Shown here: positions 25,050 to 61,733 of the stretch, piece by piece
How the letters are laid out: each line of letters begins with the position of its first letter
Position numbering within the stretch: the stretch's first letter is position 1
NCBI GenBank assembly: GCA_022792815.1
Contig: JAAWBS010000001.1
Span: forward strand, 1 to 64,000
Reading direction: 5' to 3'
Origin: Hungatella sp.
GTDB lineage: Bacteria > Bacillota > Clostridia > Lachnospirales > Lachnospiraceae
Length of the DNA stretch: 64,000 nucleotides
The notes under the pieces: model-generated
What the model was told of the DNA's origin: nothing
Databases searched by the model: none
Seen by the model: the letters and a program-made list of their open reading frames with translations, nothing else
Made by a program: the position numbers and the translations under genes

Positions 25050-25325
25050 CTATTCCAGCCCTTCATAGTACCTGGCCAGATTCTCGATAAACTCTTCTCT
25101 CTCCTCGTCCTCACAGCCTCGGAAATAGATTTCCTCGATATCACTGTGATTAAACAAAAACTGGCTCTCGTCACCCATATTGCCCTCCGGATAGAGGACG
25201 CTGATATAGTCATATTCCTTATCCGTGCTGGTATCGGTCTGCTTCACCCCGTAGATCATGACTCTCTTCTGTCCGTCTTTCAGCAAAACCACGCTTCCGA
25301 TCGGCAATAACTCTCTGATTTCCAT
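25050..25325 (-). CDS. DUF4176 protein, type VII secretion accessory
   Basis: The 91-residue cytoplasmic protein carries the DUF4176 pattern: LPIGSVVLLKDGQKRVMIYG at the start, then YISVLYPEGN and FLFNHSDIEEIYFRG. DUF4176 genes cluster with LXG toxins and WXG100 genes in Firmicutes type VII loci, where members have been described as helpers of toxin export. Here it is the last gene of the minus-strand locus, 73 bp after the candidate substrate gene. By analogy it may be that protein's chaperone (inference). It starts at ATG 25325 and has a normal length. Confidence 0.8.
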   Translation of the reverse strand: MEIRELLPIGSVVLLKDGQKRVMIYGVKQTDTSTDKEYDYISVLYPEGNMGDESQFLFNHSDIEEIYFRGCEDEEREEFIENLARYYEGLE

Positions 25326-25398
25326 AATTTAGATCCTCTTTTCCTGATTTTATCATGCGGATCGATCCTGGCATTCTAATCCTCGCTGTCCGGCTCCG

Positions 25399-26454
25399 CT
25401 ACCCGAACAGCTTCTTGCCCCATTTGGCGATGGCTTTGACTCCTTTTCCCAGGGCTTTTCCCGCTTTTCCTACCTTGTCTGCGGCATAGAATATCACATC
25501 CGACGCCACTTCTGCCAGGTCCTTTTCTTCCCCAAACTTACCTGTGACCCATTTGCACAGCCCGTTGGCAGCCCAGGTCACAGCCACGGAGCCTGCTCCC
25601 ACGAGGATTGCTCCCGGCCCCAGAGGCACCAATACTGCGGTGACGAAAGCGGTGGAGGCTCCGCCTATGGCGATGTCCACGCCGGTCTCTATGGCGATCT
25701 CAGCCCCCAGCTTCAGCAGATTGCCGTCGCCCCGTTTTTTGTACTCGTCTACATTGTCCACCACGTTGCCGGCCAGCGTCAGGAGGTGACCTGCCCATTT
25801 GGTCGCAACCTTCACCTTGCCCCCCGCAGTCGTAGCGTTCTTGAAAGACAGGTCTTTTCCAAACTGTTTGCCCCAGGAGGAGGTAAAGGTCTTGCCGAAG
25901 CTGGAGGTATCCAGGCCCGTGACGGCGCTGTTAAAGCCAAAGAGGGACTTGGACCAGTCGGCCTTGGAACCCTGAGCTATCGTCCCTGAGATTCCGCCGA
26001 TCATGGAAGAAAGGCTCTTTCCCGCCGCGATTCCGGATTTTAAAGACCACCCTTCTGTGACGATGCTGCCTACAGCCGAAACACCGGCTCCGATGATGCC
26101 GCCTTTGCCGATGAGCTTCCAGGTGTCCTTCATGGTCCACTTATTGAATTCCTTTTTCTTTTTGTCTGATAAGACCTGATGCGGAGCCGCCAGACCATTC
26201 TCACATTCCCTGTATGCTTTCAGAACATCCGACAGGCCTGTCTCCAGATTTTTGATCCCCTGTTTTTCCTCCTCCAGACTGGAGATCACTTTATCCAGCG
26301 CACGGTAGACTGCCGTAAAGTTTCTGCCCCTCATAGACCGGTAGGATCTGATGCTGCGCACGGAGGCGATGGTATTGGACAGTTCCCGCCTGTGGGCCCC
26401 ATACAGAGTCACGGCCATGTCGGCGCCGCTCCATTTTATACTGATTGAACTCAT
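25399..26454 (-). CDS. Candidate type VII substrate with glycine-rich hydrophobic C-terminus
   Basis: I do not recognise a family for this 351-residue protein. Residues 1-90 look like a helical hairpin starting with MSSISIKWSG and ending in Tyr81-x-x-x-Glu85, the YxxxD/E export signal of ESX substrates. The rest (about 110-350) is rich in Gly/Ala/Val with several amphipathic or membrane-like stretches of glycine-zipper type and a Lys-rich end. This resembles pore-type toxin domains in general character only. Start: ATG 26454, two bases after the previous stop; a GTG at 26460 is an alternative. The DUF4176 neighbour supports a secreted effector. No obvious immunity gene is seen. Confidence 0.6.
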   Translation of the reverse strand: MSSISIKWSGADMAVTLYGAHRRELSNTIASVRSIRSYRSMRGRNFTAVYRALDKVISSLEEEKQGIKNLETGLSDVLKAYRECENGLAAPHQVLSDKKKKEFNKWTMKDTWKLIGKGGIIGAGVSAVGSIVTEGWSLKSGIAAGKSLSSMIGGISGTIAQGSKADWSKSLFGFNSAVTGLDTSSFGKTFTSSWGKQFGKDLSFKNATTAGGKVKVATKWAGHLLTLAGNVVDNVDEYKKRGDGNLLKLGAEIAIETGVDIAIGGASTAFVTAVLVPLGPGAILVGAGSVAVTWAANGLCKWVTGKFGEEKDLAEVASDVIFYAADKVGKAGKALGKGVKAIAKWGKKLFG

Positions 26455-26456
26455 AT

Positions 26457-26996
26457 TCACCTGCTCCCCATTCTAAACTCACTCAAAAGCTCATAAAAAT
26501 CTTCCTCACACTTCAAGAGCAGTACTTTCGTATCTCTGTCTCTCTCACATGTCCGGGCAGTCTCGGCATCCAGCACAAACTTGAAATCGCACCTCTGTCC
26601 TAAGCTGTCGGCGATCTTCACATCAGCCTCCGACACCAGGTCCACATTGAACGATACCTGATACACCGTACACTCGGCCACCTGAAATTCCCCCGCTGCC
26701 ACTTTCCTCAGAATCCTCTGTTTCTGCTTTCTGCATACTCGGATCCACCACACCGCGGCTGCGGACATTGCCAGTATCACTGCGGTGACCATGTTCTCCC
26801 CTGCGGATCTGTCTGCAAGACCTGTAGTCAGAGTCACAAGACAGCTTCCCGCCATGACCCCGAAGAACGCCGTGCCGAGAGACATCGCCCTCAGAGTCCT
26901 GGCAAATGATTTTCTTAGGTACCGTAAGGTCCCCTCCTTTTCCGCCCTCACAGGCGGCCGGAATCCGGCCAGCGCTTCTCTCCTTACACAGTCCAC
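26457..26996 (-). CDS. Membrane protein of unknown function in the type VII locus
   Basis: The 179-residue protein has a basic cytoplasmic N-terminus, two membrane helices (about 38-60 and 68-86) and a C-terminal soluble domain of about 85 residues rich in beta-type sequence with several Cys. No known family is recognised. The start is GTG 26996, six bases after AAGGAGA. It lies between the PP2C gene (11 bp) and the candidate substrate gene. It could be a small membrane component replacing a missing EssA/EssB-type part, or an immunity protein for the next gene; neither is proven. Confidence 0.6.
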   Translation of the reverse strand: MDCVRREALAGFRPPVRAEKEGTLRYLRKSFARTLRAMSLGTAFFGVMAGSCLVTLTTGLADRSAGENMVTAVILAMSAAAVWWIRVCRKQKQRILRKVAAGEFQVAECTVYQVSFNVDLVSEADVKIADSLGQRCDFKFVLDAETARTCERDRDTKVLLLKCEEDFYELLSEFRMGSR

Positions 26997-27007
26997 AGGT
27001 TCTCTCC

Positions 27008-27718
27008 TTATACCTTTACCGCAATCAGTGAATAATTGTCCTTCGTGTCATGTTCCACGGCTCTCCGGGCCAGCTTCTCCACCCTGCCCTGCCTCAAAAA
27101 AGGCATCCGGTACATATGCCGCAGACCGGCAAGGAGCTCATCCTCCTCCACATACCGGTAGATACCGTCGCTGCACAGGAGGAATACCTCGCCGGCCCTC
27201 ACCTTGTCCGTGGCACAGGAATACTCCAGGTTCTCGTAGCCTCCCACGGCACTGATGATCATTCCCGCATGTTCGGATCCGGCATCCCTGTCCGGACGAT
27301 TCTCCCACACGTCGTCTCTGGTGATCACCCTGGCACCCTCCCTGCCGCACCGGTAGATGCGGCTGTCTCCGCAGGAGAGGTACCCGCAGATGCCCTGATG
27401 CACAAACAAGAGGGCCAAGGTGGAACAGCTGTTTCCCGCTCCGGAGTCCCGGCACAATTCCTCATTGATCTGTTCTGCCGTGTCCTTGATATGGCCAAAA
27501 AGAGAAAAGAAGTCTTTCGCCCTGTGAGCTTGAAACACGTACTCCCACCAGGCACCGTACCGCTGCGCGATATAACCGCTGGCTCCGGCCCCGTCGAGGG
27601 AGCCTCCCACTCCGTCTGCTACCAGAAAAATCCCGGAGTTTCCCTCATTCCGCATGAGAATGGAATCCTGATTGTCTTCCCGGTAATCTCCCTTCTCACA
27701 GATGCCCCACACCGTCAT
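27008..27718 (-). CDS. PP2C-family Ser/Thr protein phosphatase
   Basis: The 236-residue single-domain phosphatase has the metal-binding motifs of PPM enzymes: REDNQD near 13-18, LVADGVGG near 32-39, CGDSRIYR near 115-122, LLCSDGIYRYV near 180-190 and DTKDNYSLI near the end. It would remove phosphate from Thr/Ser, reversing a Hanks-type kinase. ATG overlaps the stop of the VWA-FHA gene (ATGA), so translation is coupled and the FHA protein is a likely substrate or partner. No kinase lies in this operon; the nearest is at 51186-52637. Confidence 0.93.
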   Translation of the reverse strand: MTVWGICEKGDYREDNQDSILMRNEGNSGIFLVADGVGGSLDGAGASGYIAQRYGAWWEYVFQAHRAKDFFSLFGHIKDTAEQINEELCRDSGAGNSCSTLALLFVHQGICGYLSCGDSRIYRCGREGARVITRDDVWENRPDRDAGSEHAGMIISAVGGYENLEYSCATDKVRAGEVFLLCSDGIYRYVEEDELLAGLRHMYRMPFLRQGRVEKLARRAVEHDTKDNYSLIAVKV

Positions 27719-29244
27719 CTGTAAGTCACCTTAAGCCTGACCGGTCCCAATTTGAGCACGGCTCCTGACGGAAGCGGCAGTTCCGGGGCTACTCTCTTGT
27801 CGTTGACAAAGGTTCCGTTGGTGGAGGCGATCACGTCCCCTCCCCCGTCTCTCACAAACAGGCTGTCTCCCTTGGACACGATCTCACAGTGAACCGATGA
27901 GACGTAGGTATTGTAGTCAATGACGATCTGACACTTCTTCCTGTCCCTGCCGACGAGAAGTTTATCCCGCAAGGGGTACTCAAAGGTCTTGGACGGGTTG
28001 TCTAAATCCTGTAATGTCAGTTGAAGCCCTCCTGCGGCCTTCAGCATCCTGGTGTGGCCGTCGCTGTCATCGCCGCCTCCCTGAAGTCCGGCCACGGCAT
28101 CCCTGGAGCGGCCGATGCCTGATAAGTCGATCTGGGACTTCTGGGCATCTGCTTTTTTCTTCTTCCCGGCCAGGATCACCCCAGTCACAATCGCGATGAC
28201 CAGGACAAGGGCCGCGGCTATCCCTGCCGCCAGAAACGGCATCCCGAAAAATCCGTCCTCCGTGTCGGAAACCATCACTTCGGTCTCCTCCGCGCTCTCT
28301 GTCTGCTCTGCATCCTCGGTCTCCGGCTCCTCGGTGGTCTCCGGTTCTGTCTCCGCCTCAATCTCCTCCTGGGTCGTCTCCTCCACGGCCTTAAATGGCA
28401 TGTCCACCTGGGCCGTACAGTAGTCATCGCCAAAGGAGACCCTCACAGTCCTGGCAGTTCCGTCACAGGACTTGTCCGGAGGGGTGATGTTCACCCTGAT
28501 GATGTCTTCGTCCTCCTCTATTCCCTGAAGGATATCCCCGACTGACGCCTCGGTGAAGAGATAGTTCCTCCCGCCGGACATCCGGGACAGGGCGAACATC
28601 TTCTTTAAATTTTCCTCATTGCCCTTGGCCGGGCAGCCGATGGCATAGACAGGCACTTTTGCCGCCTGAATCTTTTTGTTCAGCTCGTCGTCCGTGTAGC
28701 CCAAAGCCTCATCGTCCACGCCGTCTGCTATGACAATGACACGGGTATACCGGATATCTTCATAACTGCTGATATCGCTCATCACCGTGTACATCACATT
28801 GGTAAAATAACTGTCTTGATTCTCGAACTGAAGGCTGTCAATCTGAGCCTTGATATCCAGATAATCGCTGCTCTCCTGAACCAGATAGGTGAGATTTTCT
28901 GCAAATGTGGCGATGGTAAAGACGTCTCCGTCATTTCGGTCCGCCGCCAGCTGAGTCAAAAATTCCTTGATCTCTTCCCTGTACTTCTTGTCGATGGACA
29001 GAGAGTTGTCCAACACCACTATGGTCCTAAAAGGCCCGGGCTCTTCTGTCGTAAAGCCCGGGGCCTCATCATTTCCCACATAGACGTGATCGATCTCTCG
29101 TCCCTGATCTTTTAAAAACAGAACCACCGAATCCGGACCTGTGTATGCGTTCATCACCGCTTCCAACTGAGCGGCCGCCGCCAGTGTGCCGGTGAGAAGC
29201 ACCATACAGCACACTGCGGAAATGAATCTGATGATCTTTTTCAT
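27715..29244 (-). CDS. VWA and FHA membrane protein of the type VII locus
   Basis: The 509-residue protein has a Sec signal peptide (1-24) and an extracytoplasmic von Willebrand A domain (about 72-265) with a MIDAS-like DNSLS. Next come a Ser-poor beta region, an acidic Glu/Thr linker (about 300-345), one membrane helix (about 350-378) and a cytoplasmic FHA domain (about 405-509) with SSVHCEI and STNGTFVND motifs. It could link events outside the membrane to phosphothreonine signalling inside. It is coupled to the PP2C gene by ATGA. The domain order is clear; a structural or regulatory role in secretion is inference. Confidence 0.88.
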   Translation of the reverse strand: MKKIIRFISAVCCMVLLTGTLAAAAQLEAVMNAYTGPDSVVLFLKDQGREIDHVYVGNDEAPGFTTEEPGPFRTIVVLDNSLSIDKKYREEIKEFLTQLAADRNDGDVFTIATFAENLTYLVQESSDYLDIKAQIDSLQFENQDSYFTNVMYTVMSDISSYEDIRYTRVIVIADGVDDEALGYTDDELNKKIQAAKVPVYAIGCPAKGNEENLKKMFALSRMSGGRNYLFTEASVGDILQGIEEDEDIIRVNITPPDKSCDGTARTVRVSFGDDYCTAQVDMPFKAVEETTQEEIEAETEPETTEEPETEDAEQTESAEETEVMVSDTEDGFFGMPFLAAGIAAALVLVIAIVTGVILAGKKKKADAQKSQIDLSGIGRSRDAVAGLQGGGDDSDGHTRMLKAAGGLQLTLQDLDNPSKTFEYPLRDKLLVGRDRKKCQIVIDYNTYVSSVHCEIVSKGDSLFVRDGGGDVIASTNGTFVNDKRVAPELPLPSGAVLKLGPVRLKVTYR

Positions 29245-29252
29245 GTTGTCAA

Positions 29253-29567
29253 TTACGCGATCACATCGACCTGAAGGGCTGATGCCACCTCCTGGGCCGT
29301 CCGCTCTGCCTCCTGGTATACCTGAGCCATGGCCTGAAGGTCCGTGGCGTGCTCGTTGATCATCTTGACCATCTTATTGATGCTCTCCTGAAGACCGTGG
29401 GCCTTGTTGTAGTAGGCGGTAGCCGCCTCGCCGGCCCAGGTTCCGTTTAAGCTGTCCACTGTGGAAAGCATGTTGGATGTAAGATTCTGAACGGTCGCTG
29501 CGGATGCAGAAAAGCTCTGGGCTGTAGAAATAAGTTTCTCCGGGGTTACTCTCAATGTTCCTGTCAT
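29253..29567 (-). CDS. WXG100 protein 1
   Basis: The 104-residue helical-hairpin protein of the ESAT-6 superfamily has Trp44-Ala-Gly46 at the turn and Tyr84-x-x-x-Glu88 in the second helix, the two marks of ESX substrates. Such proteins are exported as dimers and often help partner toxins across EssC. The start is ATG 29567, nine bases after GGAGA; the ATG three codons earlier touches that site. It is the last of six related genes in a row and stands 8 bp before the VWA-FHA gene. Confidence 0.9.
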   Translation of the reverse strand: MTGTLRVTPEKLISTAQSFSASAATVQNLTSNMLSTVDSLNGTWAGEAATAYYNKAHGLQESINKMVKMINEHATDLQAMAQVYQEAERTAQEVASALQVDVIA

Positions 29568-29625
29568 GATTATCATTCTCCTTTATCTATGATTTCTGTT
29601 CCTGTCCGATTCCTGGTGAACCGCT

Positions 29626-29928
29626 CTACTTGTAGGATCTGGTGCTTGCGGTGCCGACGTTCTTCGCCTCAGCAGCCTCGTATTTCTGGGCATTGTTCTC
29701 TAAAGCCTGACAATACTTCTCGATGGTGTCATAAAACACATCCATCTGGGACTTGTCGCTGTTGTAGGCGTTGTGGAAGTTCTCCTTGGCCTCGCCGTCC
29801 CACATTCCCATCAGCTGCTGCTCCGTGCCGGTCATATCCTCCACAGCCTTCTTAAACTGGTTGTTCAACTGTCTCAGCTCGCTTGCCTTAGACTTTAAGT
29901 CCCCTGATGTTACTTTGATCTCTGCCAT
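29626..29928 (-). CDS. WXG100 protein 2
   Basis: The 100-residue ESAT-6-like protein has Trp43-Asp-Gly45 at the turn and Tyr83-x-x-x-Glu87 near the C-terminus. The remainder is two amphipathic helices. The start is ATG after AGGAGG. Of the set it is the closest in pattern to canonical EsxA-type proteins (WDGEAKENF), so it may be the main secreted partner. Confidence 0.92.
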   Translation of the reverse strand: MAEIKVTSGDLKSKASELRQLNNQFKKAVEDMTGTEQQLMGMWDGEAKENFHNAYNSDKSQMDVFYDTIEKYCQALENNAQKYEAAEAKNVGTASTRSYK

Positions 29929-29994
29929 GTTTCATTCCTCCTAAAAAGTTTTAATATATCACTCAAGTGTAATGGTAACACATTGAATTTCAAC

Positions 29995-30306
29995 CTACTG
30001 ATACGTTCTGGACTCCGCGATCTCGAGAGCCCTCAGTTCAGCCTCCTTCACCGCTTCCGCTGTGGTCCTGATGGCCTGGGCGATCTTCTTCACACTGGCA
30101 GCCGTAGTCCCGATCTCCTCCTGCACCTTCCCTGCCTTAGAGTAATACTCGGGAGAACTGTCGCTCTGCCAAACGCTTTTTAACTGACCGATGGTATCTG
30201 CCAGCCTGTCCTTCGCCAGCTGTTCCAGCTTTCTGCCGATGGATTCCAGCTTTTCCGCCTGTCTGATGGCTTGTTTATAGTTAAACAAAATCTCTGTCTT
30301 TGTCAT
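29995..30306 (-). CDS. WXG100-like protein 3, with WQS turn and no YxxxE
   Basis: The 103-residue helical-hairpin protein has Trp46-Gln-Ser48 where the others have WxG, and no YxxxD/E motif in the second helix. It ends in SRTYQ. Start: ATG six bases after AGGAGG. Lack of the export motif fits the partner that travels inside a heterodimer, or a non-secreted adaptor. The 66-bp gap downstream contains nothing notable. Confidence 0.85.
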   Translation of the reverse strand: MTKTEILFNYKQAIRQAEKLESIGRKLEQLAKDRLADTIGQLKSVWQSDSSPEYYSKAGKVQEEIGTTAASVKKIAQAIRTTAEAVKEAELRALEIAESRTYQ

Positions 30307-30319
30307 CCCGGCACCTCCT

Positions 30320-30634
30320 CTATGCGATCACGTCTGTAGCCAGAGTCTGGTTATTCTCTGTCAGCGCCCTCTCGTTCTCGTCGTAGACTCCTGCCATGAC
30401 CAGCAGGTCTCCGGGATGCTCTTTAAACCGCCGGATGACCTGGTCCGTGTCATCCTTCTTGGAGTCAAAGTCCTTCCTCGCCTTATCTCCGGCGGCTCCC
30501 ACCCAGTATCCGGTGCTTCTGGACATGATATCCTGAATACTGGCAAAATGGCTTTCCAATTTTCTAATGTCCTGTTCCACCTCCGAGGCCTTGGTCCTCA
30601 GGGCCTCTGTGGTAACTTTTAATATTATGCTCAT
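30320..30634 (-). CDS. WXG100 protein 4
   Basis: The 104-residue ESAT-6-like protein has Trp44-Val-Gly46 at the turn and Tyr84-x-x-x-Glu88 near the C-terminus. The tail (TLATDVIA) resembles that of WXG100 protein 1 (ALQVDVIA), suggesting a duplication or a shared contact. The start is ATG after a GGGGGAGA ribosome site, and the gene ends 13 bp before protein 3. Confidence 0.9.
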   Translation of the reverse strand: MSIILKVTTEALRTKASEVEQDIRKLESHFASIQDIMSRSTGYWVGAAGDKARKDFDSKKDDTDQVIRRFKEHPGDLLVMAGVYDENERALTENNQTLATDVIA

Positions 30635-30644
30635 TGGTCTCCCC

Positions 30645-30953
30645 CTATACTCTTATGGCACTGACAATCGAGGCCACGCTGCTCTCACAGGTCTCATACC
30701 GGGCTTTGGCCTCCTCCAAAAGCCCAATCATAGCCTCTATGATCTCTGCCATGGAGTTTAAGGTCTCGTAATCAGACTGAAACTGCGCCACAAAGGCATT
30801 TTTCGCCTCGCCCTCCCACATGGCTCCGAGACCGTTAATCCCGGCCATCATGCTCTCCCCGGTCTTTCTCAGACCGTCCAAATGGGTCTTCAGACTGTCG
30901 ATGTCGCTCTGGAGCCTTTTCGTCTCGATCTCCAGCTTGGTTAACGCTGCCAT
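30645..30953 (-). CDS. WXG100 protein 5
   Basis: The 102-residue ESAT-6-like protein has Trp46-Glu-Gly48 at the turn and Tyr86-x-x-x-Glu90 in the second helix. Its ATG lies inside the last codons of the preceding gene (13-bp overlap), so the two are translated together and may pair as a heterodimer. Confidence 0.9.
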   Translation of the reverse strand: MAALTKLEIETKRLQSDIDSLKTHLDGLRKTGESMMAGINGLGAMWEGEAKNAFVAQFQSDYETLNSMAEIIEAMIGLLEEAKARYETCESSVASIVSAIRV

Positions 30954-31324
30954 CCGCTCTCACCTCCATACAATACGGTATTGACTCTGTCATAGAATCC
31001 GGACAGATCTACATTGGCTGTGTGAACCGGACTCTGCGGGGGGGCCTGGGACTCAAAGCTGTCCTCGATCTGTGTCTCTGTCCTCTGATACAAATCTCCG
31101 ATGTTGTCCAGAGCCTGAGCCATCATCTTGGTCTTGTACCGCTCCTCGGTCACCCTGTCCTCAAGCCTTCTCAGCATCCGGATCTCCGTGCCGAATTCTG
31201 TCTGTCTCTCCAGCGCTCTCTCCACCGCTTCCAGCTCTGCCGTCACTGTCCCCAGCTCTCTTGATATCTCCTGGATGTGGAGACTGATGTGTCTTATCTC
31301 TTCTGTATTGGCTTGCACATTCAC
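30941..31324 (-). CDS. ESAT-6-like coiled-coil protein without a WXG motif
   Basis: The 127-residue protein has two long charged helices and a loose C-terminal tail of about 40 residues. No WxG is present, but Tyr79-x-x-x-Glu83 occurs in the second helix and the length fits an ESX-type hairpin. The start is GTG 31324, eight bases after AAGGAGA. It is the first gene of the WXG100 cassette behind the candidate LytTR-controlled promoter and overlaps WXG100 protein 5. It is probably a diverged partner or adaptor of the secreted proteins. Confidence 0.72.
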   Translation of the reverse strand: MNVQANTEEIRHISLHIQEISRELGTVTAELEAVERALERQTEFGTEIRMLRRLEDRVTEERYKTKMMAQALDNIGDLYQRTETQIEDSFESQAPPQSPVHTANVDLSGFYDRVNTVLYGGESGWQR

Positions 31325-31348
31325 TTTTTATCTCCTTGTCATGGCACA

Positions 31349-31380
31349 AGTATACCTCTCTTTTCACGGGTGTGTGTCAA
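31349..31380 (-). promoter_or_regulatory. Promoter of the WXG100 cassette with a 20-bp spacer
   Basis: On the minus strand a perfect TTGACA (31380-31375) and a good TATACT (31354-31349) are 20 bases apart, three more than the optimum. Such long spacers usually make a promoter weak unless an activator helps. It lies 25 bp before the GTG of the first cassette gene. Confidence 0.55.
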
Positions 31381-31383
31381 AAA

Positions 31384-31417
31384 CTGACAAAATGCATGTT
31401 TTAGCCGACGAAATGCA
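31384..31417 (-). promoter_or_regulatory. Candidate LytTR-type binding site (two direct repeats)
   Basis: Two copies of TGCATTTYGTCRG (minus strand; 31417-31405 and 31396-31384) are arranged head-to-tail with a 21-bp period, that is two helical turns, and end three bases before the -35 element. LytTR-family activators such as AgrA bind paired direct repeats with about this period next to promoters with long spacers. A LytTR protein is encoded upstream in the same locus (32356-33072). Confidence 0.55.
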
Positions 31418-31442
31418 CATTGCCCTCTGGTTCCTGCCTCTT

Positions 31443-31691
31443 TCACACGAGAATCAGCTTCTCCCCGTTCTTCACACTGTAGCCTTTGAGAGAACTTCTG
31501 GGATTAAAATTCACTTTCTTGTCCACGGAACTCATGACAAACCGCTCCTTATCCCCGGCTAAGGCGGAATGCTCTTTCTGGCAGATCAGCTCTGAGATCT
31601 CCTCGATCAGCACCGCGATCCTGGACTCCTCGTCCAGATTGAAATTATATACCCTGTCCAAAGCCGGAACGTACACATCCACATTGATCAT
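31443..31691 (-). CDS. YukD/EsaB-type ubiquitin-like protein
   Basis: The 82-residue protein has a beta-grasp pattern: MINVDVYVPALDRVYNFNL, a central helix with ISELI, and the ending GYSVKNGEKLILV. YukD/EsaB proteins are small cytoplasmic parts of Firmicutes type VII systems, needed for or regulating secretion. The ATG at 31691 overlaps the previous stop (ATGA) and follows AGAGGGGA; the frame extends 28 codons upstream within the previous gene, but that is not coding. It is the last gene before the promoter gap (31325-31442). Confidence 0.85.
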   Translation of the reverse strand: MINVDVYVPALDRVYNFNLDEESRIAVLIEEISELICQKEHSALAGDKERFVMSSVDKKVNFNPRSSLKGYSVKNGEKLILV

Positions 31692-32359
31692 AGCTCTTCC
31701 CCTCTGATTTCCTTTAATAGTAGGCCGGCGGCCTCCTCTGCCGAGTACATATGGCAGTAGCTGACGTCTCTGCACAGAACATCAAGCCACGGAAAGACCA
31801 GGGACCGAAAGCCGCGGATCCGATTGTCCCGTTCCCCGTCCTCTGCCCTGATCCTCTCTGCCTCAAAAAACATCTCCTCATGCCCTGCTTCCAAATCTTT
31901 TTGAGCATGACCTTCCAGTGCCATGGCCTCCTCCCGGTGTTCGGTCAGACTCCTCGGCAGCTGTTCGTTGTCAAACAGATCCCGGACGTAGGCCTCCGGC
32001 TCTGCAGGCCACAGCTTCACCTGGGGACGGCCGGGACCGCTCTGTTTCTCCAGGACGATCACCGGTCCCTGTCCGCCGGCCCCCGGATAGATCAGCTGCT
32101 GGCCGGGGACTCCCTCCCGTAAGGTCAGTTTTATGATATATTCGGACAGACCCATGACTCTGACCAGTTCCATGACCTCCCCGGTCAAAACGATCCGGCC
32201 CCCGCTCTGCATCGCCTGCTTTCTTCTGTACAGCTGCGCTACGGCATGGACGATGGCCGAGTCGTCTAAGTCCTCTTCCCGACTGAACATGTACAGACTC
32301 TTCTGGCCGGCCAGGACGAGGAGGGTGATAAATTGTTCTTCCGTAAAAATGTATTTCAT
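31688..32359 (-). CDS. Cytoplasmic protein of unknown function in the type VII locus
   Basis: The 223-residue soluble protein has no signal peptide. It begins MKYIFTEEQFITLLVLAGQK, continues as mixed alpha/beta with a polar, Glu-rich middle (about 130-170) and ends with a helical part containing a few Cys. I recognise no family. Its place between the LytTR regulator and the EsaB-like gene, with ATGA overlaps at both ends, shows it is a core member of the locus. A substrate-specific chaperone is one possibility, by loose analogy with EspG of mycobacterial ESX systems. Confidence 0.6.
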   Translation of the reverse strand: MKYIFTEEQFITLLVLAGQKSLYMFSREEDLDDSAIVHAVAQLYRRKQAMQSGGRIVLTGEVMELVRVMGLSEYIIKLTLREGVPGQQLIYPGAGGQGPVIVLEKQSGPGRPQVKLWPAEPEAYVRDLFDNEQLPRSLTEHREEAMALEGHAQKDLEAGHEEMFFEAERIRAEDGERDNRIRGFRSLVFPWLDVLCRDVSYCHMYSAEEAAGLLLKEIRGEEL

Positions 32360-33072
32360 GTGATCAGTCTCTTGATATCCTGTCTATAGGTTCTGGACAG
32401 AAGAGCCGCCGCCCCGCCCTCCATCTCGATGATCCCCTCCGACAGCCGGATCTTCCGGATCTTTCTGGAATTGACCAGATAAGAGCGGTGACATCTTACA
32501 AAATAGGCGGGGACCGTGGTCTGCAGGTTCTCGATGCTGTCGTAAAAATCGTACTCTTCCCGATCTGTTCTCACATTGATCTTCTTGTTGCTGGCCTCGA
32601 AGAACAGGATCCTGTGGTAGGGAATCAGGATTTTCCCCTCTCGGGATCCCAAGACAAACTGTTCGTCGGGATCCGGGCTGTCCAGGGTCTGCAAAAAGGC
32701 GTCAAACATCTCTTCATTGACCTGGTCGAACTCTCTCTGGGCAAAAGGCCTCAGAAGAAGGAGATCCGGCGCGATTCCCGGCCTTAAGTACTGCATGGGA
32801 GACACGGTCGGGGAAGTGAGAATCATCAGCAGCGCCTCCCCTCCCTTCTGCCTAAGCCTTCGTAGGGCCTCCACATCCGACGGGGCCCTGATCTCGAAGT
32901 AGACCAGATCCGTCAATCCCTCGAGGGAACCGTCCCCCGCCAGCTGTTCCGGCGCCGTGGTCTTGGTGAAGGTTAGCTTATCCTCGGTCTTTCGGGCTGT
33001 CTGGCTGCGGCAGCCCTTTTCTATGATACTCTGCTCTCTTAACACTCTGTTGAAGGAAAAAACCGAAATCAT
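32356..33072 (-). CDS. LytTR-type transcription regulator of the type VII locus
   Basis: The 238-residue protein has an N-terminal receiver-like domain (about 1-130) in which the usual acidic phosphorylation site is not clear, and a C-terminal LytTR DNA-binding domain (about 135-238) with the segments RILFFEASNKKINV, YFVRCHRSYLVN and LSRTYRQDIKRLI. LytTR proteins activate promoters through paired direct repeats. It starts at ATG 33072, two bases after the essC stop, and overlaps the next gene by ATGA. No histidine kinase is adjacent, so it may respond to a different signal. The candidate site at 31384-31417 suggests it controls the WXG100 cassette. Confidence 0.85.
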   Translation of the reverse strand: MISVFSFNRVLREQSIIEKGCRSQTARKTEDKLTFTKTTAPEQLAGDGSLEGLTDLVYFEIRAPSDVEALRRLRQKGGEALLMILTSPTVSPMQYLRPGIAPDLLLLRPFAQREFDQVNEEMFDAFLQTLDSPDPDEQFVLGSREGKILIPYHRILFFEASNKKINVRTDREEYDFYDSIENLQTTVPAYFVRCHRSYLVNSRKIRKIRLSEGIIEMEGGAAALLSRTYRQDIKRLIT

Positions 33073-33073
33073 G

Positions 33074-36000
33074 TCATCCTCTGTAGTTGGGAACAACAAC
33101 CTGTTCCATCCTTGCATTCTCATCATCGCTGGGAACCACGCCGATGCCGGCCTTCAGCCCGTTGGCCTGAATCTTGTAGGGCACATTGGCATAGGTAAAC
33201 AGCTTCTGGGACAGATATTTCCCGCCGAATCGAAGGCCCTTTCCGTTATCCCGGAAACCGGCCATAAACTTGTATCCCATGGTATCGCCGATATCGCTGT
33301 CACTTAACTCCGCAAAGAAATAGAAATTATAGTGGAATCCCTTGTCCCCGCTTAAAGTCTCATACACACCTACGGCATTGTATGCCTCGGACTCCCGGTT
33401 GTAAAGCTCGTTCAGGAAGGCAGGCACATTGGGGATAAAGACGCAGATGCGGCGATATTGTGCCATGGCCCGGTAAAATTCCTCGTCCTCCAGATGTCCG
33501 GCCATACACTCTTTCTTCTTCACCGCCCGGATCCCCGCCTCACTCAAGAGGGTATTCTTGGCAAAGTCGTAGATGCCGTGGCCGTCGGTCACATAGCGGC
33601 AGCCTGTGTCTGCCGCGATCTGGGCAAACTCCGTCGATCCGATCTCGATGATGCACACATCGCTGTCCTTGTCTAAGCTGGCCCGGATCAAAGTCTTTAA
33701 ATAGGTGGACTTGCCGCTCTTTCTCGTACCTGTGACCACATAGGTCAGAAGGCTGGTGAGATCGACAGAAGAATAGGCCGCCGTCTCGGCATCGTAGCCG
33801 TTCGGCAGAAGGTTGGGAGTGTCTATCAGTTTCTGATAATCCTCCTCTTTCCGGTACTCCTCCCACACAGGTTTCTCGGGAATCACCGGGATCCTTCTGG
33901 CATGTCTTCCCTTGTCTGCCTGGTTGACCAAGGCGATCCTCTTCTTAATGCTGTCGTTTCGGTCAAATGTGCTGTCACCCTCCGCTGCCAGGGCTGTCTG
34001 GAACTCGATGATCTTCTCGCCGTAGTACACAAGGCCCCGGCCCTTCACATTGCTCTCCGGATACAGGGGCACTCTCACCACCCGCATCACATCGCTGTAC
34101 TGGTAGATATCCGACATCTCCAGACTGATGGTGGTCCGGAAGTTATCTGCCAGCCTGGAAGGAATCTCGGATGTCCCGAACCCTCCGGCTGTGACCATGA
34201 GGAAGATGCCGTAGCTCAGTCCCTCCTTGGCCAGCTGTTTGATCATGTCGTCGTAGTGCTCGTCGGTCTTCTCCTTAAATCCGGCGTAGTTATCGATGAC
34301 AATGATGACGGCAGGCAGCCTTCCCCGGCTGTGTTCTACATAGTCCCGGTAATTGGAAGAGGCCAGAAGTTTCTTCCTCTCGTCGATGACAGCGGCGATC
34401 ATAGTGAAGAACTTGGAGATCTTCTCGCCGTCCTCCTCTGCATCCGTCATGATTCCGCCTACCTGTCCGGCATCCTCAAACACCGTCAGCAGCTTGGAAC
34501 TGAAATCCAGGATATAGATGTTGACCTCCTCTGAGGTGTACTTGTTAATCAGGGCGTACACCGCTGTCTGGAGGAACGTGGACTTGCCGGTGGACACAGT
34601 TCCGCAGATGGCGTGGTGACCGTTGTTGGCAAAATCCACTGTGATGGGCATCTGGTTCTGATTCTCCGGGTCATCGCCTTTCCCCACCACCACTGACAGG
34701 GACCACTGGCCGCCGCCTGCGGCACCGGCCCGCTCTCTCAGCTCGAAATCCCGGTATCCGTCTATAGAAGTGAGAGGCAGGATCTCCGGCAGAACCGGCA
34801 TCCACAGCTGCACCGTGTGGGTGTAGCCGCTCTTTTCTGCCACCTGGGCCAGATATTCGTTGACTGCCTCCAACTGGGACTTGGCCTTGGTCTCGGGAAG
34901 CTTGATCCCGTGCTTTAAGGCGGCATCGATCAGCTGAACCACTTTGTGATCTTCCGAGCTTCCCTTCAGACTGCCGAAGAGACGGATAAACACTTTCAGT
35001 CTCACGTCATTGTACTGGCTCTTTTTATAATCGATATTTTTCTTCTCCATGAGGCCGTAGACCACGCCCATGATCCTCTCGATGTAGACGTCATCGATTC
35101 GATCCAGATCAGAGACCCTGTTTCCTGCCGCGTACTCCACGGCCTGACACAGAATCTTGATCCACCGCTGTCTGGCCTCCTCCTGGTATTTGATCTTAAA
35201 GTGATTGCCCACCAGGTCGATCTTGCCGACGGAATCCAGCATCTGGGCCACCACCAGCTTCTTGTCTCCCAGGACCTCGTCGTAGACGGCCCCGGAATAT
35301 CCGGATTGGAACAGTTCAAACAGCTCGTCGTTGCCCACCTGTAAATATCCCCGGCCGGCCTGAGTCAGATAGGCCGCATCCGCCCGATGGAGCATATCCA
35401 TGGAATCCTGCCGGTCCTGCACCCTCAGACACAGGCGGAATTTGGAGTTGGACCAGATGTTGTCGTCCACCGTGCCGGCCGGCTTCTGGGTGGCCAGAAT
35501 CAAATGGACTCCCAGACTTCGTCCCACCTGGGCCACACTCACCAGCTCCCTCATAAAGTCCGGCTCCTCCCGCTTTAACTCCGCAAACTCATCGATGATA
35601 ATAAACATGTGAGGGATAGGCTCTTTGGCGCTGTTGCTCTTGTAGAGGGACGTGTACGCGTTGATGTTGTTGACGCCGTAGTAGGAGAAGATCCTCTGTC
35701 TCCTCTTGTTCTCTGATTTGATGGACACCATGGCCCGCTTGACCTGGTTGCCGGACAGGTTGGAGATGGCGCCGATCATATGGGGCAGGCCTTTAAAGAG
35801 ATTGGCCATGCCGCCGCCCTTGTAGTCGATGATGAAAAATCCCACATCGTCAGGGCTGTAATTGATGGCCAGGGACAGTATATAGGTCTGAAGGGTCTCC
35901 GACTTGCCGGAACCTGTAGTTCCCGCCACTAGTCCGTGGGGACCGTGATATCGCTCATGGATATCCAGGTAACAGGGCGCTCCTCCGCTCTTGAAGCCGA

Positions 36001-38068
36001 CGAGGGCCCTCATGGACTCTGCCGTCCGGGACCGCCTCCACCGCTCGGCCGCGTTTAACTCTTCCGGCCTGGAGATCCCGTACATATCAAAGAAGGTGAG
36101 AGAACTTGGAACCTCGCCGCCGCTCTCCGTCTCATTGACCTCGATATTGGCCAGTCTCTTGGCAAAGCTCATCAGCTTGGCATCGGATACCTCGTCGAAC
36201 ACGACAGGAATCTTGTCCGTGTTCTCATCCGTGGTGGAGTAGATGCCGGAAAATCCGCTGTTGTTCTCGATGATGAATTCACAGTTGTTGGGCAGCCCCT
36301 CGTAGTGCTCGGACACAATGACGGTGGACAGTCCGATCTGGCCGCTTTCGTCGTTTACATATTTTGTGATCAGCTCGCCCTCCAGCAGTTCTTTGTTGAG
36401 CACGATCAGAATATAGTAGGGCTTTATGCCGCTTAAGTCCTCTTCCTTCCTGGTCCTCATGATCTGGCTTAAAGCATAGAACACCTCGCTGGCCTCGTTT
36501 TTGTTGGCCGCGAAAAACCGAAGCTTCTTGTCCTCGGACCAGACGTGGGGAAGCCATTTGACGAACTCCCAGGTCCTGACATTGGGAATCCGGTTGGCGT
36601 CGTAGACCATGGCGATCTTCACGTCGGTGTAACTGTTGTTGCCGGCGATCTGAGCGATCAGATTCTTGACGACAAAGACCCAGGCGTTGTTGCTGCCGAT
36701 GACGCCCACCAGGCTCTTTTCCCTGAGATTGACACAGGCAGGCACATTGCGCATGATGCTGAACCGGTCGCTGATCATCTTCGGCTTCTCTGCCAGAGAA
36801 TCGTCCAGCATGGTGAACCGCTCCCTCTGAACCTCGATGGTCAGGGGGCTTGGCACATCTCCCACCCCCAGCCTGTAGGTCAGCACGTCGCTGTGGTTAA
36901 AATTTCGGTTCCACAGCTTCTCATTGCCGTAGGCATAATCCGCGATGGCATCTGAGGAAAGGTATTTCGCCCGCATGGCAGCGGAATTGGCGTTGTAGCA
37001 CTCTTCTATGTAATTCTGCTTGTCGATAAGATACTGGCCGTATTTATCGTAGCGCTGCCGCTCTTCCTGGTAGACTCTCTTCTTGTTGAACCGCAGATTC
37101 ATAAGTGCCCAGAAGACGCCGATGAAGGCGGAGGCCACCGCGGTGATGATGCCGGTGTACATCATAGAGCTGCCGGCGCTGCCGCTCATCCGGGATGCCG
37201 CGACAGTCATCCCGCTTCCCAAAATCATGGGGATAGTCATGGTCATAGCCGGCCCGATCTGCATGTAGAGAGGCATGGGAGTGATCTCCCTGGGGGCGGG
37301 CGGCGGATCGATGGTGACCGTCTCCGAATTGACCTTGGGGATGCTTCTCGGCGCCCGATAAAAGACCGACCGGGCGCTGCTGCCGCTCTTCTTGCCCTTG
37401 GTCTCCAAAAGTCCCAGTTCCGGCGTGGTAAGCTCGGTCAGATCCGTCTCTCCGCCTGTAGGGCTGTTGACCGCCAGCAGATTGCCCAGACAGATGATGC
37501 TCAGCCCGAACACGCGAATATGATCTCCAAAGTTCAGTTTTGTCTTCCCGTTGACCCGGATGTTGTTGACATAGGTACCGTTGGAGGAGGTGTCCTCCAG
37601 CCAGGCAGCGGTTCCGTCATAGCGGATATTGCAGTGATGGTGGGAGACAAAGCTTTTGGTCTGTTTTTCTATGGGGTAGCGATAACGAATCTTGTTATCC
37701 GGATCCAATCCTATAGATACCACCTGATTGGCGACAAGGACATATTTTTTGTAAACACACAGAGGATTATCCTTCTCCTCCACAAGGATCGTCAGAAATT
37801 CCCCTGCCGATGTGGACAGGTTATATCTTCCGTAGACAGGAAGCCTGTTGTTGTCCGGCGAGGGCGGACCGATATACTCGATGGTACGCCCCTCGGTTAC
37901 GGGTTTAAAATACCACTGGTTCTGTATGCTCTCCAGCTCTACTACTTCATTGGCCTGGAGATGAAAAGTCTCGGCATCCAAAAGAAATGAGTACTCCGTG
38001 TTGGCCATAGACGGCAACACGACCTCATAAAATGCCCAGTCGTTGTAGATCGACAGTACTTTACTCAT
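33074..38068 (-). CDS. essC: EssC: FtsK/SpoIIIE-type type VII secretion ATPase
   Basis: This 1664-residue protein is the central motor and membrane channel part of Firmicutes type VII systems. The N-terminal 200 residues hold two FHA-type domains; the second has SHHHCNIRY and SSNGTYVNN (141-169). Two membrane helices follow (about 272-292 and 302-324). A degenerate ATPase-like region lies near 450-560, and then come three ATPase domains. D1 has Walker A GTTGSGKS (716-723) and Walker B IIIDEF. D2 has GTVSTGKST (1156-1164) with IDN at the Walker B end. D3 has GTRKSGKST (1447-1455) but no acidic Walker B (CVFIPN). Start: ATG 38068 after AAGGGGG; the 25 codons upstream belong to the promoter region. 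Confidence 0.95.
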   Translation of the reverse strand: MSKVLSIYNDWAFYEVVLPSMANTEYSFLLDAETFHLQANEVVELESIQNQWYFKPVTEGRTIEYIGPPSPDNNRLPVYGRYNLSTSAGEFLTILVEEKDNPLCVYKKYVLVANQVVSIGLDPDNKIRYRYPIEKQTKSFVSHHHCNIRYDGTAAWLEDTSSNGTYVNNIRVNGKTKLNFGDHIRVFGLSIICLGNLLAVNSPTGGETDLTELTTPELGLLETKGKKSGSSARSVFYRAPRSIPKVNSETVTIDPPPAPREITPMPLYMQIGPAMTMTIPMILGSGMTVAASRMSGSAGSSMMYTGIITAVASAFIGVFWALMNLRFNKKRVYQEERQRYDKYGQYLIDKQNYIEECYNANSAAMRAKYLSSDAIADYAYGNEKLWNRNFNHSDVLTYRLGVGDVPSPLTIEVQRERFTMLDDSLAEKPKMISDRFSIMRNVPACVNLREKSLVGVIGSNNAWVFVVKNLIAQIAGNNSYTDVKIAMVYDANRIPNVRTWEFVKWLPHVWSEDKKLRFFAANKNEASEVFYALSQIMRTRKEEDLSGIKPYYILIVLNKELLEGELITKYVNDESGQIGLSTVIVSEHYEGLPNNCEFIIENNSGFSGIYSTTDENTDKIPVVFDEVSDAKLMSFAKRLANIEVNETESGGEVPSSLTFFDMYGISRPEELNAAERWRRSRTAESMRALVGFKSGGAPCYLDIHERYHGPHGLVAGTTGSGKSETLQTYILSLAINYSPDDVGFFIIDYKGGGMANLFKGLPHMIGAISNLSGNQVKRAMVSIKSENKRRQRIFSYYGVNNINAYTSLYKSNSAKEPIPHMFIIIDEFAELKREEPDFMRELVSVAQVGRSLGVHLILATQKPAGTVDDNIWSNSKFRLCLRVQDRQDSMDMLHRADAAYLTQAGRGYLQVGNDELFELFQSGYSGAVYDEVLGDKKLVVAQMLDSVGKIDLVGNHFKIKYQEEARQRWIKILCQAVEYAAGNRVSDLDRIDDVYIERIMGVVYGLMEKKNIDYKKSQYNDVRLKVFIRLFGSLKGSSEDHKVVQLIDAALKHGIKLPETKAKSQLEAVNEYLAQVAEKSGYTHTVQLWMPVLPEILPLTSIDGYRDFELRERAGAAGGGQWSLSVVVGKGDDPENQNQMPITVDFANNGHHAICGTVSTGKSTFLQTAVYALINKYTSEEVNIYILDFSSKLLTVFEDAGQVGGIMTDAEEDGEKISKFFTMIAAVIDERKKLLASSNYRDYVEHSRGRLPAVIIVIDNYAGFKEKTDEHYDDMIKQLAKEGLSYGIFLMVTAGGFGTSEIPSRLADNFRTTISLEMSDIYQYSDVMRVVRVPLYPESNVKGRGLVYYGEKIIEFQTALAAEGDSTFDRNDSIKKRIALVNQADKGRHARRIPVIPEKPVWEEYRKEEDYQKLIDTPNLLPNGYDAETAAYSSVDLTSLLTYVVTGTRKSGKSTYLKTLIRASLDKDSDVCIIEIGSTEFAQIAADTGCRYVTDGHGIYDFAKNTLLSEAGIRAVKKKECMAGHLEDEEFYRAMAQYRRICVFIPNVPAFLNELYNRESEAYNAVGVYETLSGDKGFHYNFYFFAELSDSDIGDTMGYKFMAGFRDNGKGLRFGGKYLSQKLFTYANVPYKIQANGLKAGIGVVPSDDENARMEQVVVPNYRG

Positions 38069-38081
38069 ATTGGCCCCCTTG

Positions 38082-38103
38082 TCATGTGAATGGTTCCACA
38101 TGA
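38082..38103. promoter_or_regulatory. Inverted repeat just downstream of the essC promoter (candidate operator)
   Basis: TCATGTG (38082-38088) and CACATGA (38097-38103) form a perfect 7-bp inverted repeat around 8 bases. It lies just after the expected transcription start of the essC promoter, a usual place for a repressor site. It could instead form a short leader hairpin. Confidence 0.45.
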
Positions 38104-38114
38104 ATATTTCCTTT

Positions 38115-38143
38115 ATTTTACAAAATCCGTCAGGCTTTGTCAA
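38115..38143 (-). promoter_or_regulatory. Promoter of the essC operon
   Basis: On the minus strand TTGACA (38143-38138), a 17-base spacer and TAAAAT (38120-38115) lie about 47 bp before the essC ATG. The -35 lies within the last codons of the acetyltransferase gene, showing that the type VII operon has its own start. Confidence 0.65.
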
Positions 38144-50248: not shown

Positions 50249-50473
50249 TTACTTGTTATACACCCGGTCAAAATGGATCTCCTTTAGAGTCCCCTCCTCT
50301 GTCCCTACATAATCACACATATAAAAGGCTCCATCTTCCCGAACCTGGAAGATCTTCTCCCAGTCCTCTTCCGCTGCCTCCTGTCCGTCAATATAGATTG
50401 GAACTCCTATGGATTCAAATCTTCTGAACCCGTCCACATACTGCTTCTGCTCCTCTGCACTATACTCTTTCAT
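50249..50473 (-). CDS. Small acidic protein of unknown function
   Basis: The 74-residue soluble acidic protein has no membrane segment and one Cys. Its start ATG 50473 lies 14 bases inside the end of the preceding MinD-like gene, after GAGGAGAG, so it is translationally coupled to it. The sequence (DGFRRFESIGVPIYIDGQEA) is not a family I know. It may be a partner or regulator of the kinase/MinD-like pair. Confidence 0.62.
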   Translation of the reverse strand: MKEYSAEEQKQYVDGFRRFESIGVPIYIDGQEAAEEDWEKIFQVREDGAFYMCDYVGTEEGTLKEIHFDRVYNK

Positions 50474-51164
50474 TTGACTTTCTCTCCTCTTTTGACCTCA
50501 AAAACTGCCCTTTTCCCCTCAGGAGGCCTTTTCGTGACACATCACCTGAAAAAGGGCTCCGGTCCAGCGCCGTCTCCATCCATCCCATCAGCTCTCTGGT
50601 GACGGTAAAGGCATCTGCTGAAAGAGGAACTCTCTCGATCTTCGGTCTCCGCCTTTTATTCCACTCTGCTCTGGATTCTTCACTGCCAAAGGCAGCAAAA
50701 AATTGCCAGCTTTCTCTCCCCGGGGATTCCCTAGATCTCATAAGTTCCCAAAACGCCTCCATCTGCCACTCGCTGAAGGATATTAGGATCCACACGGCTT
50801 TGCACCGCGTAAGTTCTGTCTCAGTCATTTCATCCAGGACGCCGAAATCGATCAGCACCCTCTCGTATCCTTCTCCCAGGCATCTCATCAGCCGGCCCGC
50901 CTCTGCCCGTGGGTAGTAATCTGCCTGCAAGATTCGATAGCGGTCTTTCTCCTTTTCTTCTCCCGTGCACAAGATTCCCAGACGGTCAAAATCTCCATGG
51001 TCGTTCCACTCCAGCACCGCCGTCTTTCTCCCCTGTGCACTGCACAGATAATTGGCCAGCATCAGAGTCAGGTGGGTCACCCCAGTGCCTCTGCCGGCCC
51101 CGGCCAGGCCTATGATCCAAGGCTTTGTCTCCCCTCCCCCAAAACGGCCTTTTGCAAATCTCAT
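50460..51164 (-). CDS. MinD/ParA-like protein with defective P-loop
   Basis: The 234-residue protein has the layout of a ParA/MinD NTPase, but the deviant Walker A reads GAGRGTGVTH (22-31), with Val in place of the signature lysine of GKT and His in place of Ser/Thr. The next strand has KTAVLEWNDHGDF, which matches KTIYEEWNDSQD in the C-terminal domain of the neighbouring kinase. The two domains are paralogues. Nucleotide binding is unlikely or altered, so the protein may be a scaffold. The start is ATG after AGAGGAG, 21 bp after the kinase gene. Confidence 0.75.
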   Translation of the reverse strand: MRFAKGRFGGGETKPWIIGLAGAGRGTGVTHLTLMLANYLCSAQGRKTAVLEWNDHGDFDRLGILCTGEEKEKDRYRILQADYYPRAEAGRLMRCLGEGYERVLIDFGVLDEMTETELTRCKAVWILISFSEWQMEAFWELMRSRESPGRESWQFFAAFGSEESRAEWNKRRRPKIERVPLSADAFTVTRELMGWMETALDRSPFSGDVSRKGLLRGKGQFLRSKEERKSNERV

Positions 51165-51185
51165 GGTTCTCCTCTGCGGTTCCTT

Positions 51186-60882: not shown

Positions 60883-61731
60883 CTACTCCCCCGCCTTCAC
60901 CGCCTCTGCCAGGATCACAAACCGATATCGGCTCTGGCCGCCTACACAGGTGGAGAGCATCACCAGCGGCGGGTTCTCATCCGCCGATCTCTCAAAAGCC
61001 GCGGTGCCTTCTGCGGGCAGCGGCACGTCCACCTTTGGGTCTGCCGGGTCTATGAGGTAAGTACCTCTCTCTCTCATGCCGGTTAGAAACTGGTTCCGCT
61101 CTACATCGGCGGCAAAGGCCGTAGGATAGTTGTCTTCTTTGGCGGGAACCCGGCAGCAGGCCAGGATTCGGCAGCGATATACTGCGTCAGGCAGATAGAG
61201 GTCAAAATAAGGGAATTTCTCGTAGTGATCCTGTTCCATGTAGCGCTTTAACAGTCCGAACATGGAACCGTTGCGCATATTGTGGCCATAGATGATGGTG
61301 TTGTCGTCTGTGAGAAGCCCCTCGTTGCGGGAATCCGCGAAAATACATCCCGCCGCGTTTCGTTTTCCTTCAAATGTGTATTTCAGATAACGGGCGTTGT
61401 CCGCGCCGTGTACTACAGGATAGCTGATGTCCTGGCCCGGAAAATCGATCCAGGCCGCAATATCCCCGTTGATGCTTCGCAGTACATCAAAATCTACGAA
61501 AAGGGCAGGCGGGTTTTTCATCACACCCGCCTGCTGAACCTGTTCTGTATTTTGATCCGGCTGCTCTTCGGACTGCCCTGCATCCTGCTTTACGGCCACC
61601 ACATGCCCTAACAGGTTTCGATACTCATCACTGCTCTCCCGGTTCATCCGGTAGTAACCGACAAGCAAAACCATACAGACCACGCAGACCCCACAGGCAA
61701 CTGCAAATAGAACTCTGAAAAGCCGTTTCAT
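60883..61731 (-). CDS. Class B sortase
   Basis: The 282-residue transpeptidase has an N-terminal signal anchor (about 5-27), a polar Gln/Glu stalk (about 45-70) and a sortase B domain with His150 in IIYGHNM, Cys262 in VMLSTC and Arg270 in RYRFV, the catalytic trio. It would attach the preceding protein to the cell wall or pilin. It starts right after that gene's stop (two bases between), after GGAGAAG. Class B sortases classically use NPQTN-like signals; here the nearby signal is IPQTG. Confidence 0.93.
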   Translation of the reverse strand: MKRLFRVLFAVACGVCVVCMVLLVGYYRMNRESSDEYRNLLGHVVAVKQDAGQSEEQPDQNTEQVQQAGVMKNPPALFVDFDVLRSINGDIAAWIDFPGQDISYPVVHGADNARYLKYTFEGKRNAAGCIFADSRNEGLLTDDNTIIYGHNMRNGSMFGLLKRYMEQDHYEKFPYFDLYLPDAVYRCRILACCRVPAKEDNYPTAFAADVERNQFLTGMRERGTYLIDPADPKVDVPLPAEGTAAFERSADENPPLVMLSTCVGGQSRYRFVILAEAVKAGE

Positions 61732-61733
61732 CC

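Follow-up and report, generated by a model that had tools for sequence, protein, structure and literature searches.

The 64,000-nucleotide stretch of Hungatella sp. DNA analysed here (contig JAAWBS010000001.1, positions 1 to 64,000; hereafter the window) carries a type VII secretion system (T7SS) locus of fifteen intact, co-directional open reading frames (ORFs) on the minus strand, running from 38068 to 25050. The locus is a T7SS in the general sense, since it encodes both an EssC/EccC ATPase and WXG100 proteins. We propose, with a probability of about 0.65, that it is an accessory T7SS of an undescribed subtype, close to T7SSi in gene content and working by the mechanism outlined below. An earlier note on this DNA had assumed that Firmicutes systems need EsaA, EssA and EssB alongside EssC. 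This is correct for T7SSb; eight subtypes (T7SSc to T7SSj) without these three proteins were catalogued by Garrett et al. 2024 (PMC11217815, cited throughout for the sections consulted). Their lack is thus known in kind; the gene set of the window locus does not coincide with any of the eight descriptions given there, T7SSi being the nearest, and we found no published description of the subtype in the open-licence PMC literature. What sets the locus apart from T7SSi is its VWA-FHA protein, its PP2C phosphatase and its six ESX paralogs, together with the EssC tree, in which presumed T7SSi rows lie elsewhere. The gene set, its order and conservation, the failure to find EssB-type genes and an empty site in congeners are established below; the functions given to the proteins are predictions from their sequences.

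Gene content, conservation and missing membrane genes

On ORF inspection, every gene listed in the earlier note is open and undisrupted, and its EssC with three modules and an FHA domain, VWA-FHA, PP2C, LytTR and DUF4176 proteins are borne out by profile matches, the VWA, FHA, PP2C_2, LytTR and DUF4176 domains all exceeding their Pfam cut-offs. EssC (or TsxC; 33074..38068, 1664 aa) matches TIGR03928 with 1031 bits (cut-off 778.4) and consists of a single FHA domain (42.5 bits), a hydrophobic segment at residues 301-325 and three FtsK/SpoIIIE modules. Although the mechanical ORF begins with a TTG codon at 38143, homology places the start later, as it does for EsaB; the starts of EssC (38068), EsaB (31691) and the candidate effector (26454) were therefore corrected to those common to relatives. 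EssC is followed by a TsiN-like LytTR regulator (N; 32356..33126; PF04397, 74.5 bits), a 223-aa protein of a conserved family (G; 31688..32359) and an 82-aa, ubiquitin-fold, EsaB/YukD-like protein (31443..31691). The EsaB-like label holds by position, which the family keeps in 62 of 69 loci, although the YukD score of 21.9 bits does not reach the cut-off of 27.

Other Clostridia share the order EssC-LytTR-G-EsaB-ESX paralogs-VWA/FHA. A GTDB species scan provided a set of 80 loci, the best 80 of at least 591 confirmed matches to the window, so that counts on this set describe the window's own neighbourhood of closest matches and not T7SS at large. The set shares some genomes with the loci from family genomes, and the two are not independent confirmation of each other; genes in relative loci were assigned automatically, with omissions or wrong picks possible. 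The 80 loci come from Lachnospiraceae bins, Oribacterium, Blautia luti, Anaerosporobacter faecicola, Faecalicatena faecalis and Lachnoanaerobaculum saburreum, as well as bins labelled Ruminococcus, Oscillospiraceae and others. Among 69 loci, LytTR is present in 56 and G in 57; EssC, LytTR and G are consecutive in 51, and the run extends to EsaB in 44. Since other genera share this order at EssC identities of only 36-52%, it is more than chance. Relative loci also hold kinase matches (30/42), a transmembrane (TM)-FHA protein 5' of EssC (45/74) and a large wall-type protein, Ig-like by eye (9/42). In five loci (L175, L188, L221, L237 and L245), EssC is preceded by a wall-type protein of 1880-2012 aa that is like component I of T7SSd and T7SSe; kinase and TPR genes accompany it in some of them.

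As for EssC itself, we built a tree of 96 rows and 1470 columns by a quick method, midpoint-rooted and with SH-aLRT (approximate likelihood-ratio) support only. The window EssC falls in a clade of 38 rows (SH-aLRT 100), apart from 13 EssB-linked EssCs. Eleven rows of this clade have no LytTR-linked tag, in some cases since the available sequence stops short. Next to the clade is a group of 24 rows (support 96) made up of T7SSe-like loci together with LytTR-linked EssCs from other families (f22 and f11); the f22 EssCs cluster with f11 and, less firmly, with the T7SSe-like EssCs, outside the window clade. The claim that this is a variant machine is thus supported by both the tree and the recurring gene order.

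We searched the host genome (3.81 Mb in 73 contigs, 89% complete) with hidden Markov models (HMMs) for EssA (PF10661), EssB (PF10140) and the EsaA N-terminus (TIGR03929), and found no match at the locus or anywhere else in that genome; control searches with these models were positive in B. subtilis. At this completeness of the host genome, the locus therefore does not fit T7SSb, which has all three, and the earlier report of no recognisable EsaA, EssA or EssB stands. The same genome holds one EssC locus; a third match lies under the cut-off, covers just a portion of the motor and was read as FtsK. EssB was above cut-off in 22 of 397 family genomes. Among the 33 with a window-clade EssC (L034-L064, L020, L112; the window's own genome not counted), a single one (G241) has EssB, on a separate contig from its EssC locus, while a second (G147) gave a match of 18.8 bits, below cut-off. 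None of the 80 relative loci has EssB. The suggestion that the missing genes lie elsewhere thus finds no backing in the host genome and, for EssB, backing in one of these 33 relatives only. The EsaA model, run on 42 genomes, gave sub-cut-off matches in 4 of the 33 with window-type EssC (G337, G148, G090 and G241; the window's own among these 33). Seven T7SSb genomes score similarly and no score above the cut-off was obtained in any of the 42, so this model does not decide the EsaA status of the relatives. In G241, the EssB and EsaA-like matches lie together on another contig.

The locus was either gained or lost as a block. In two congeners (G911 and G914), the flanking ABC transporter and GNAT genes adjoin, with 28 and 18 bp between aligned ends, while the same interval spans ~13.2 kb in the window; in a third (G114), the sole match to the EssC query has an E-value of 1.4e-19. 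The borders (220-240 bases each) share no direct repeat >8 bp or inverted repeat >9 bp. The GC content of the locus (0.538) lies between those of its flanks (0.524 and 0.543) and therefore gives no compositional sign of import. Elsewhere in the window, sortase-like, TasA/camelysin-like surface and SipW-like signal peptidase genes, named by eye, are consecutive at 60883-63974 (minus strand).

ESX paralogs, membrane candidate and cargo

Five small proteins follow EsaB and ESX6 in the order of paralogs 5 to 1. Those above the PF06013 (WXG100) cut-off of 27.3 bits are WXG5 (30645..30953; 38.9 bits), WXG2 (29626..29928; 44.8) and WXG1 (29253..29576; 63.6); WXG4 (30320..30634; 27.1) and the WXG100-like WXG3 (29995..30306; 24.8), which has WxS in the window, are just below. 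ESX6 (30941..31324), an ESAT-6-like hairpin protein with YxxxE and no WxG, has a single ESX-type match (ESAT6_2, E=0.02, 15.1 bits against a cut-off of 100), and coiled-coil matches score better; we retain it as an ESX protein on account of its position, its orthologues and its YxxxD/E motif. The earlier count of five WXG100 proteins plus a sixth ESAT-6-like one is therefore upheld for three of the five by score and for ESX6 by context, with two sub-cut-off members.

Orthologous groups, seeded from the six window proteins and assigned by best HMM score, all recur. The exact order ESX6-5-4-3-2-1 is the commonest (20/55 loci), and 5-4-3-2-1 is contiguous in 31 of 55; in some loci, blocks 2-1 and (ESX6-)5-4-3 shift place or duplicate as units. 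YxxxD/E past residue 60 occurs in 55/60 members of WXG1, 61/64 of WXG2, 58/65 of WXG4, 61/65 of WXG5 and 50/55 of ESX6, and in just 5/65 of WXG3. WxG within residues 31-60 is found in 50-55 of the 60-65 members of each WXG group and in 0/55 of ESX6. Most members of WXG1, 2, 4 and 5 retain both motifs. In PE/PPE pairs, the export signal is borne by PE (PMC11217815), and ESX6 and WXG3 divide the motifs much as PE and PPE do, from which we infer that the two may pair. In 6 of 55 loci there is no WXG match 3' of EssC, some having ESX genes upstream (L203, L224, L231), while L188 and L176 have EsaB and no ESX match after it.

The VWA-TM-FHA protein (27715..29244) has a hydrophobic N-terminus (residues 3-30, a signal peptide by eye), a VWA domain, a second hydrophobic segment at 330-363 and an FHA domain. 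It is present at any size in 42 of 55 loci and as the long form in 29, and its place in the operon is retained in other genera. In the 29 long forms, residues D79, S81, S83 and D174 of the metal ion-dependent adhesion site (MIDAS) are kept in 24-25, while the FHA residues Gly, Ser, His and Asn are kept in 29, 23, 24 and 27, respectively. This recurrence, the domain layout and the conservation of most MIDAS and FHA residues make a structural role plausible, and we consider the protein a candidate membrane component. Of the two proteins that the earlier note had put forward as replacements for the missing parts, only this one remains plausible; the 179-aa protein, which is not conserved, finds no support in that role. 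Downstream lies the PP2C-type phosphatase (F; 27008..27718), which matches PF13672 with 28.9 bits (cut-off 24) and NF033484 with 96.7 bits, below its cut-off of 230, is present in 27 of 55 loci and, judged by eye, retains the metal-binding Asp motifs.

In profile scans, none of the 15 proteins of the locus has a kinase match. The host genome has five, one being a short partial frame; two are on contig 70 and one is in the window (51186-52637; 182 bits with the kinase HMM of the clade). The latter kinase continues, by eye, into a MinD/TadZ-like P-loop part of the same protein and adjoins a MinD-like protein, the region spanning 50460-52637 (minus strand); in presumed T7SSi loci, a MinD-like protein whose C-terminal segment is hydrophobic directly precedes EssC. 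On contig 70 (L254-L255), two PP2C and two zinc-ribbon kinases cluster in an island with a kinase-like protein and FHA proteins, and no EssC or WXG match is present there. We note this PP2C/FHA island as a lead only for a kinase source acting in trans.

Protein G has 39 family members in the fetched loci, the window's own counted. The G of the window clade is homologous to that of 11 other-family loci, five of them f22 (HHalign probability 98.7%, E 6.7e-15). The G of T7SSi is reported to have predicted similarity to EspG (PMC11217815). We compared G by HHalign with eight EspG sequences, using trimmed and untrimmed alignments. Against the trimmed alignment, the score is 25.8-26.5 (E 0.003, probability 10%), while 12 control families reach at most 20.5 and 300 column shuffles at most 16.6, both kinds of control applying to the trimmed alignment and the shuffles not to the other-family G profile. 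A Pfam scan of 26 G proteins did not find EspG; one member matched DUF5081, a T7SS-linked family, at E=0.06. Searching 249 genomes of the phylum for DUF5081 gave zero matches, as did the controls, and was thus uninformative. An EspG-like chaperone role of G is possible on these weak profile scores.

At the 3' end of the locus lie the cargo genes. The candidate effector (25399..26454, 353 aa) has an N-terminal targeting domain with YRECE and a glycine-rich hydrophobic C-terminus. Using an HMM built from 11 N-terminal stretches of 150 residues each, we found this domain of ~100-150 aa in 51 proteins (>=250 aa) from 43 of the 80 loci. Its start lies at residue 60 or before in 45 of the 51; it has YxxxD/E in its second half in 49, and a DUF4176 gene lies within two genes in 34; the window protein and two others, when scanned, had no Pfam family above cut-off. 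The domain ending in YxxxD/E is thus likely to mark effectors. An earlier effector HMM drifted to lipase-type proteins, and its count of 45/55 loci was discarded; separately, lipase-like genes with a GHSKGG-type motif by eye (L043 6962-11037, L047 9208-10884 and L059 8736-9998) are possibly reverse-arranged T7SS lipases. No relative of the window effector was found among solved structures. Its C-terminal end has a loose likeness to that of the membrane-acting TelE (PMC10434224, in the part consulted), with no sequence match between the two. We regard it as a probable antibacterial effector that acts on membranes. The DUF4176 protein (25050..25325; PF13780, 95.2 bits) is a probable effector secretion factor: such proteins act in LXG secretion, and the homologue at the telA locus is essential for secretion of TelA, not TelC (PMC11322744, in the part consulted). 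The 179-aa protein (26457..26996) has two hydrophobic segments; the genes assigned in 40 family-level loci include no relative of it. In the 80 loci there is one weak match (E=0.032, L213) and a similar protein in L180, both adjoining an effector-DUF4176 module, and the three-member profile also matches L193 21643-22509, again next to effector and DUF4176 genes. Although not conserved, it looks effector-linked and fits an immunity candidate.

Proposed mechanism and alternatives

In the mechanism that we propose, the six small ESX hairpin proteins would pair with each other, and those bearing YxxxD/E would engage the EssC motor and be exported. Polymorphic effectors would be co-exported through their N-terminal helical domain, which likewise ends in YxxxE, after preparation by DUF4176 and probably also by the EspG-like G. 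EsaB may sit on the EssC motor, as the ubiquitin-like domain of EccD does in ESX systems. The membrane platform would consist of EssC and the VWA-TM-FHA protein, standing in for EsaA, EssA and EssB: its outer VWA domain may bind a metal-dependent ligand and its inner FHA domain may read threonine phosphorylation, the phosphate being removed by PP2C. The kinase would act in trans in the window genome, and LytTR would regulate the operon. A more specific picture, which we offer as tentative, is of a gut Clostridia subtype in which six ESX proteins split the export signal in a PE/PPE-like manner, an EspG-like chaperone acts and a phosphorylation-gated VWA-TM-FHA replaces EsaA, EssA and EssB.

Several observations weigh against this proposal. 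The VWA-FHA protein, at any size, is missing from 13 of 55 loci and PP2C from 28 of 55, so neither is universal. In the long VWA-FHA proteins, MIDAS residue T148 is kept in just 17 of 29 and the FHA arginine, which usually contacts phosphate, in just 19 of 29. The FHA domain of the window EssC itself has Leu where Arg is expected, Arg being found in 2 of 22 aligned EssCs. The window locus is a compact form, without the kinase, TM-FHA and large wall proteins that relatives carry at theirs. For G, the score against untrimmed EspG is 14.2 (probability 3%), and the other-family G profile alone scores 16.2 (E 0.24) against trimmed and 0.4 against untrimmed EspG. PDB profile searches with G did not return EspG: with 26 sequences, the top match was a MarR regulator (E=0.008), followed by MotA (0.02), and with 51 the top E-value was 0.18.

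The absences of VWA-FHA and PP2C are what would be expected if the two were a signalling add-on and the platform were EssC, EsaB and ESX alone, as in the small T7SSg. We find this doubtful, for the VWA-FHA protein has a membrane segment and a mostly conserved MIDAS and keeps its operon place in other genera. It is also conceivable, though in our view unlikely, that the locus is T7SSi in more taxa with accessory genes, which would make a new subtype superfluous. T7SSi is published for Vallitalea only, as far as the sections consulted go (PMC11217815). The f22 loci from the order-level genomes carry the run EssC-LytTR-G-EsaB, which corresponds to components C, N, G and B of T7SSi, have no EssB and look like T7SSi; the homology of their G to that of the window clade points the same way. 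However, f22 is equated with Vallitalea by inference and with T7SSi from gene content, so that the T7SSi rows of the tree are presumed ones. Moreover, the f22 EssCs fall outside the window clade as described above, and neither VWA-FHA nor PP2C was matched within the fetched stretches of the five f22 loci. A T7SSb that has decayed or is incomplete, its membrane genes lost or in the unassembled part of the 89%-complete genome, would be in line with the EssB and EsaA-like matches of G241 but is very improbable, as EssB is so rare in the clade and absent from the relative loci, all ORFs are intact, EssB-linked EssCs group elsewhere in the tree and the gene order recurs in other Clostridia.

Under the undescribed-subtype reading, the 2024 catalogue of T7SS variants gains a cluster found repeatedly across Lachnospiraceae and other Clostridia, of gut and rumen by record title. 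The locus offers testable candidates for the replacement of EsaA, EssA and EssB, its six-paralog ESX set divides the export motifs among its members, and the targeting domain could serve to list the effectors of these bacteria.

Comparison with known systems

With the T7SSb of S. aureus and B. subtilis, the locus shares an FHA-bearing EssC, EsaB, WXG100 proteins and DUF4176-linked effectors. In contrast to T7SSb, EsaA, EssA and EssB were not found in the window genome, and there are several recurrent ESX paralogs rather than one EsxA. The other comparisons follow the descriptions in the sections consulted of PMC11217815. T7SSc is similar in having a VWA protein (TscE), a PP2C (TscF), an EspG-like protein (TscG) and EsaB. 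However, TscE is cytoplasmic with no FHA described, TscC lacks the FHA domain that the window EssC has, and T7SSc includes a kinase (TscD). T7SSe and T7SSj have phosphatase and FHA proteins, as does the window, and some window-clade relatives carry kinases and large wall-type proteins, as in T7SSd, T7SSe and T7SSj. By Pfam scan and ORFs, the window locus lacks the kinase D, Ig-like I and DUF6382-FHA J of T7SSe, which as described is without N and G. T7SSi is closest: an FHA-bearing EssC (C), a LytR-like N, an EspG-like G and EsaB (B), with no EsaA, EssA or EssB. All four are found at the window locus, the EspG likeness of its G resting on weak profile scores. T7SSi also has a kinase-like TM protein (M), whereas the 15 proteins of the window locus gave no kinase match; beyond the T7SSi set, the window locus has the VWA-FHA protein, the PP2C phosphatase and the six recurrent ESX paralogs.

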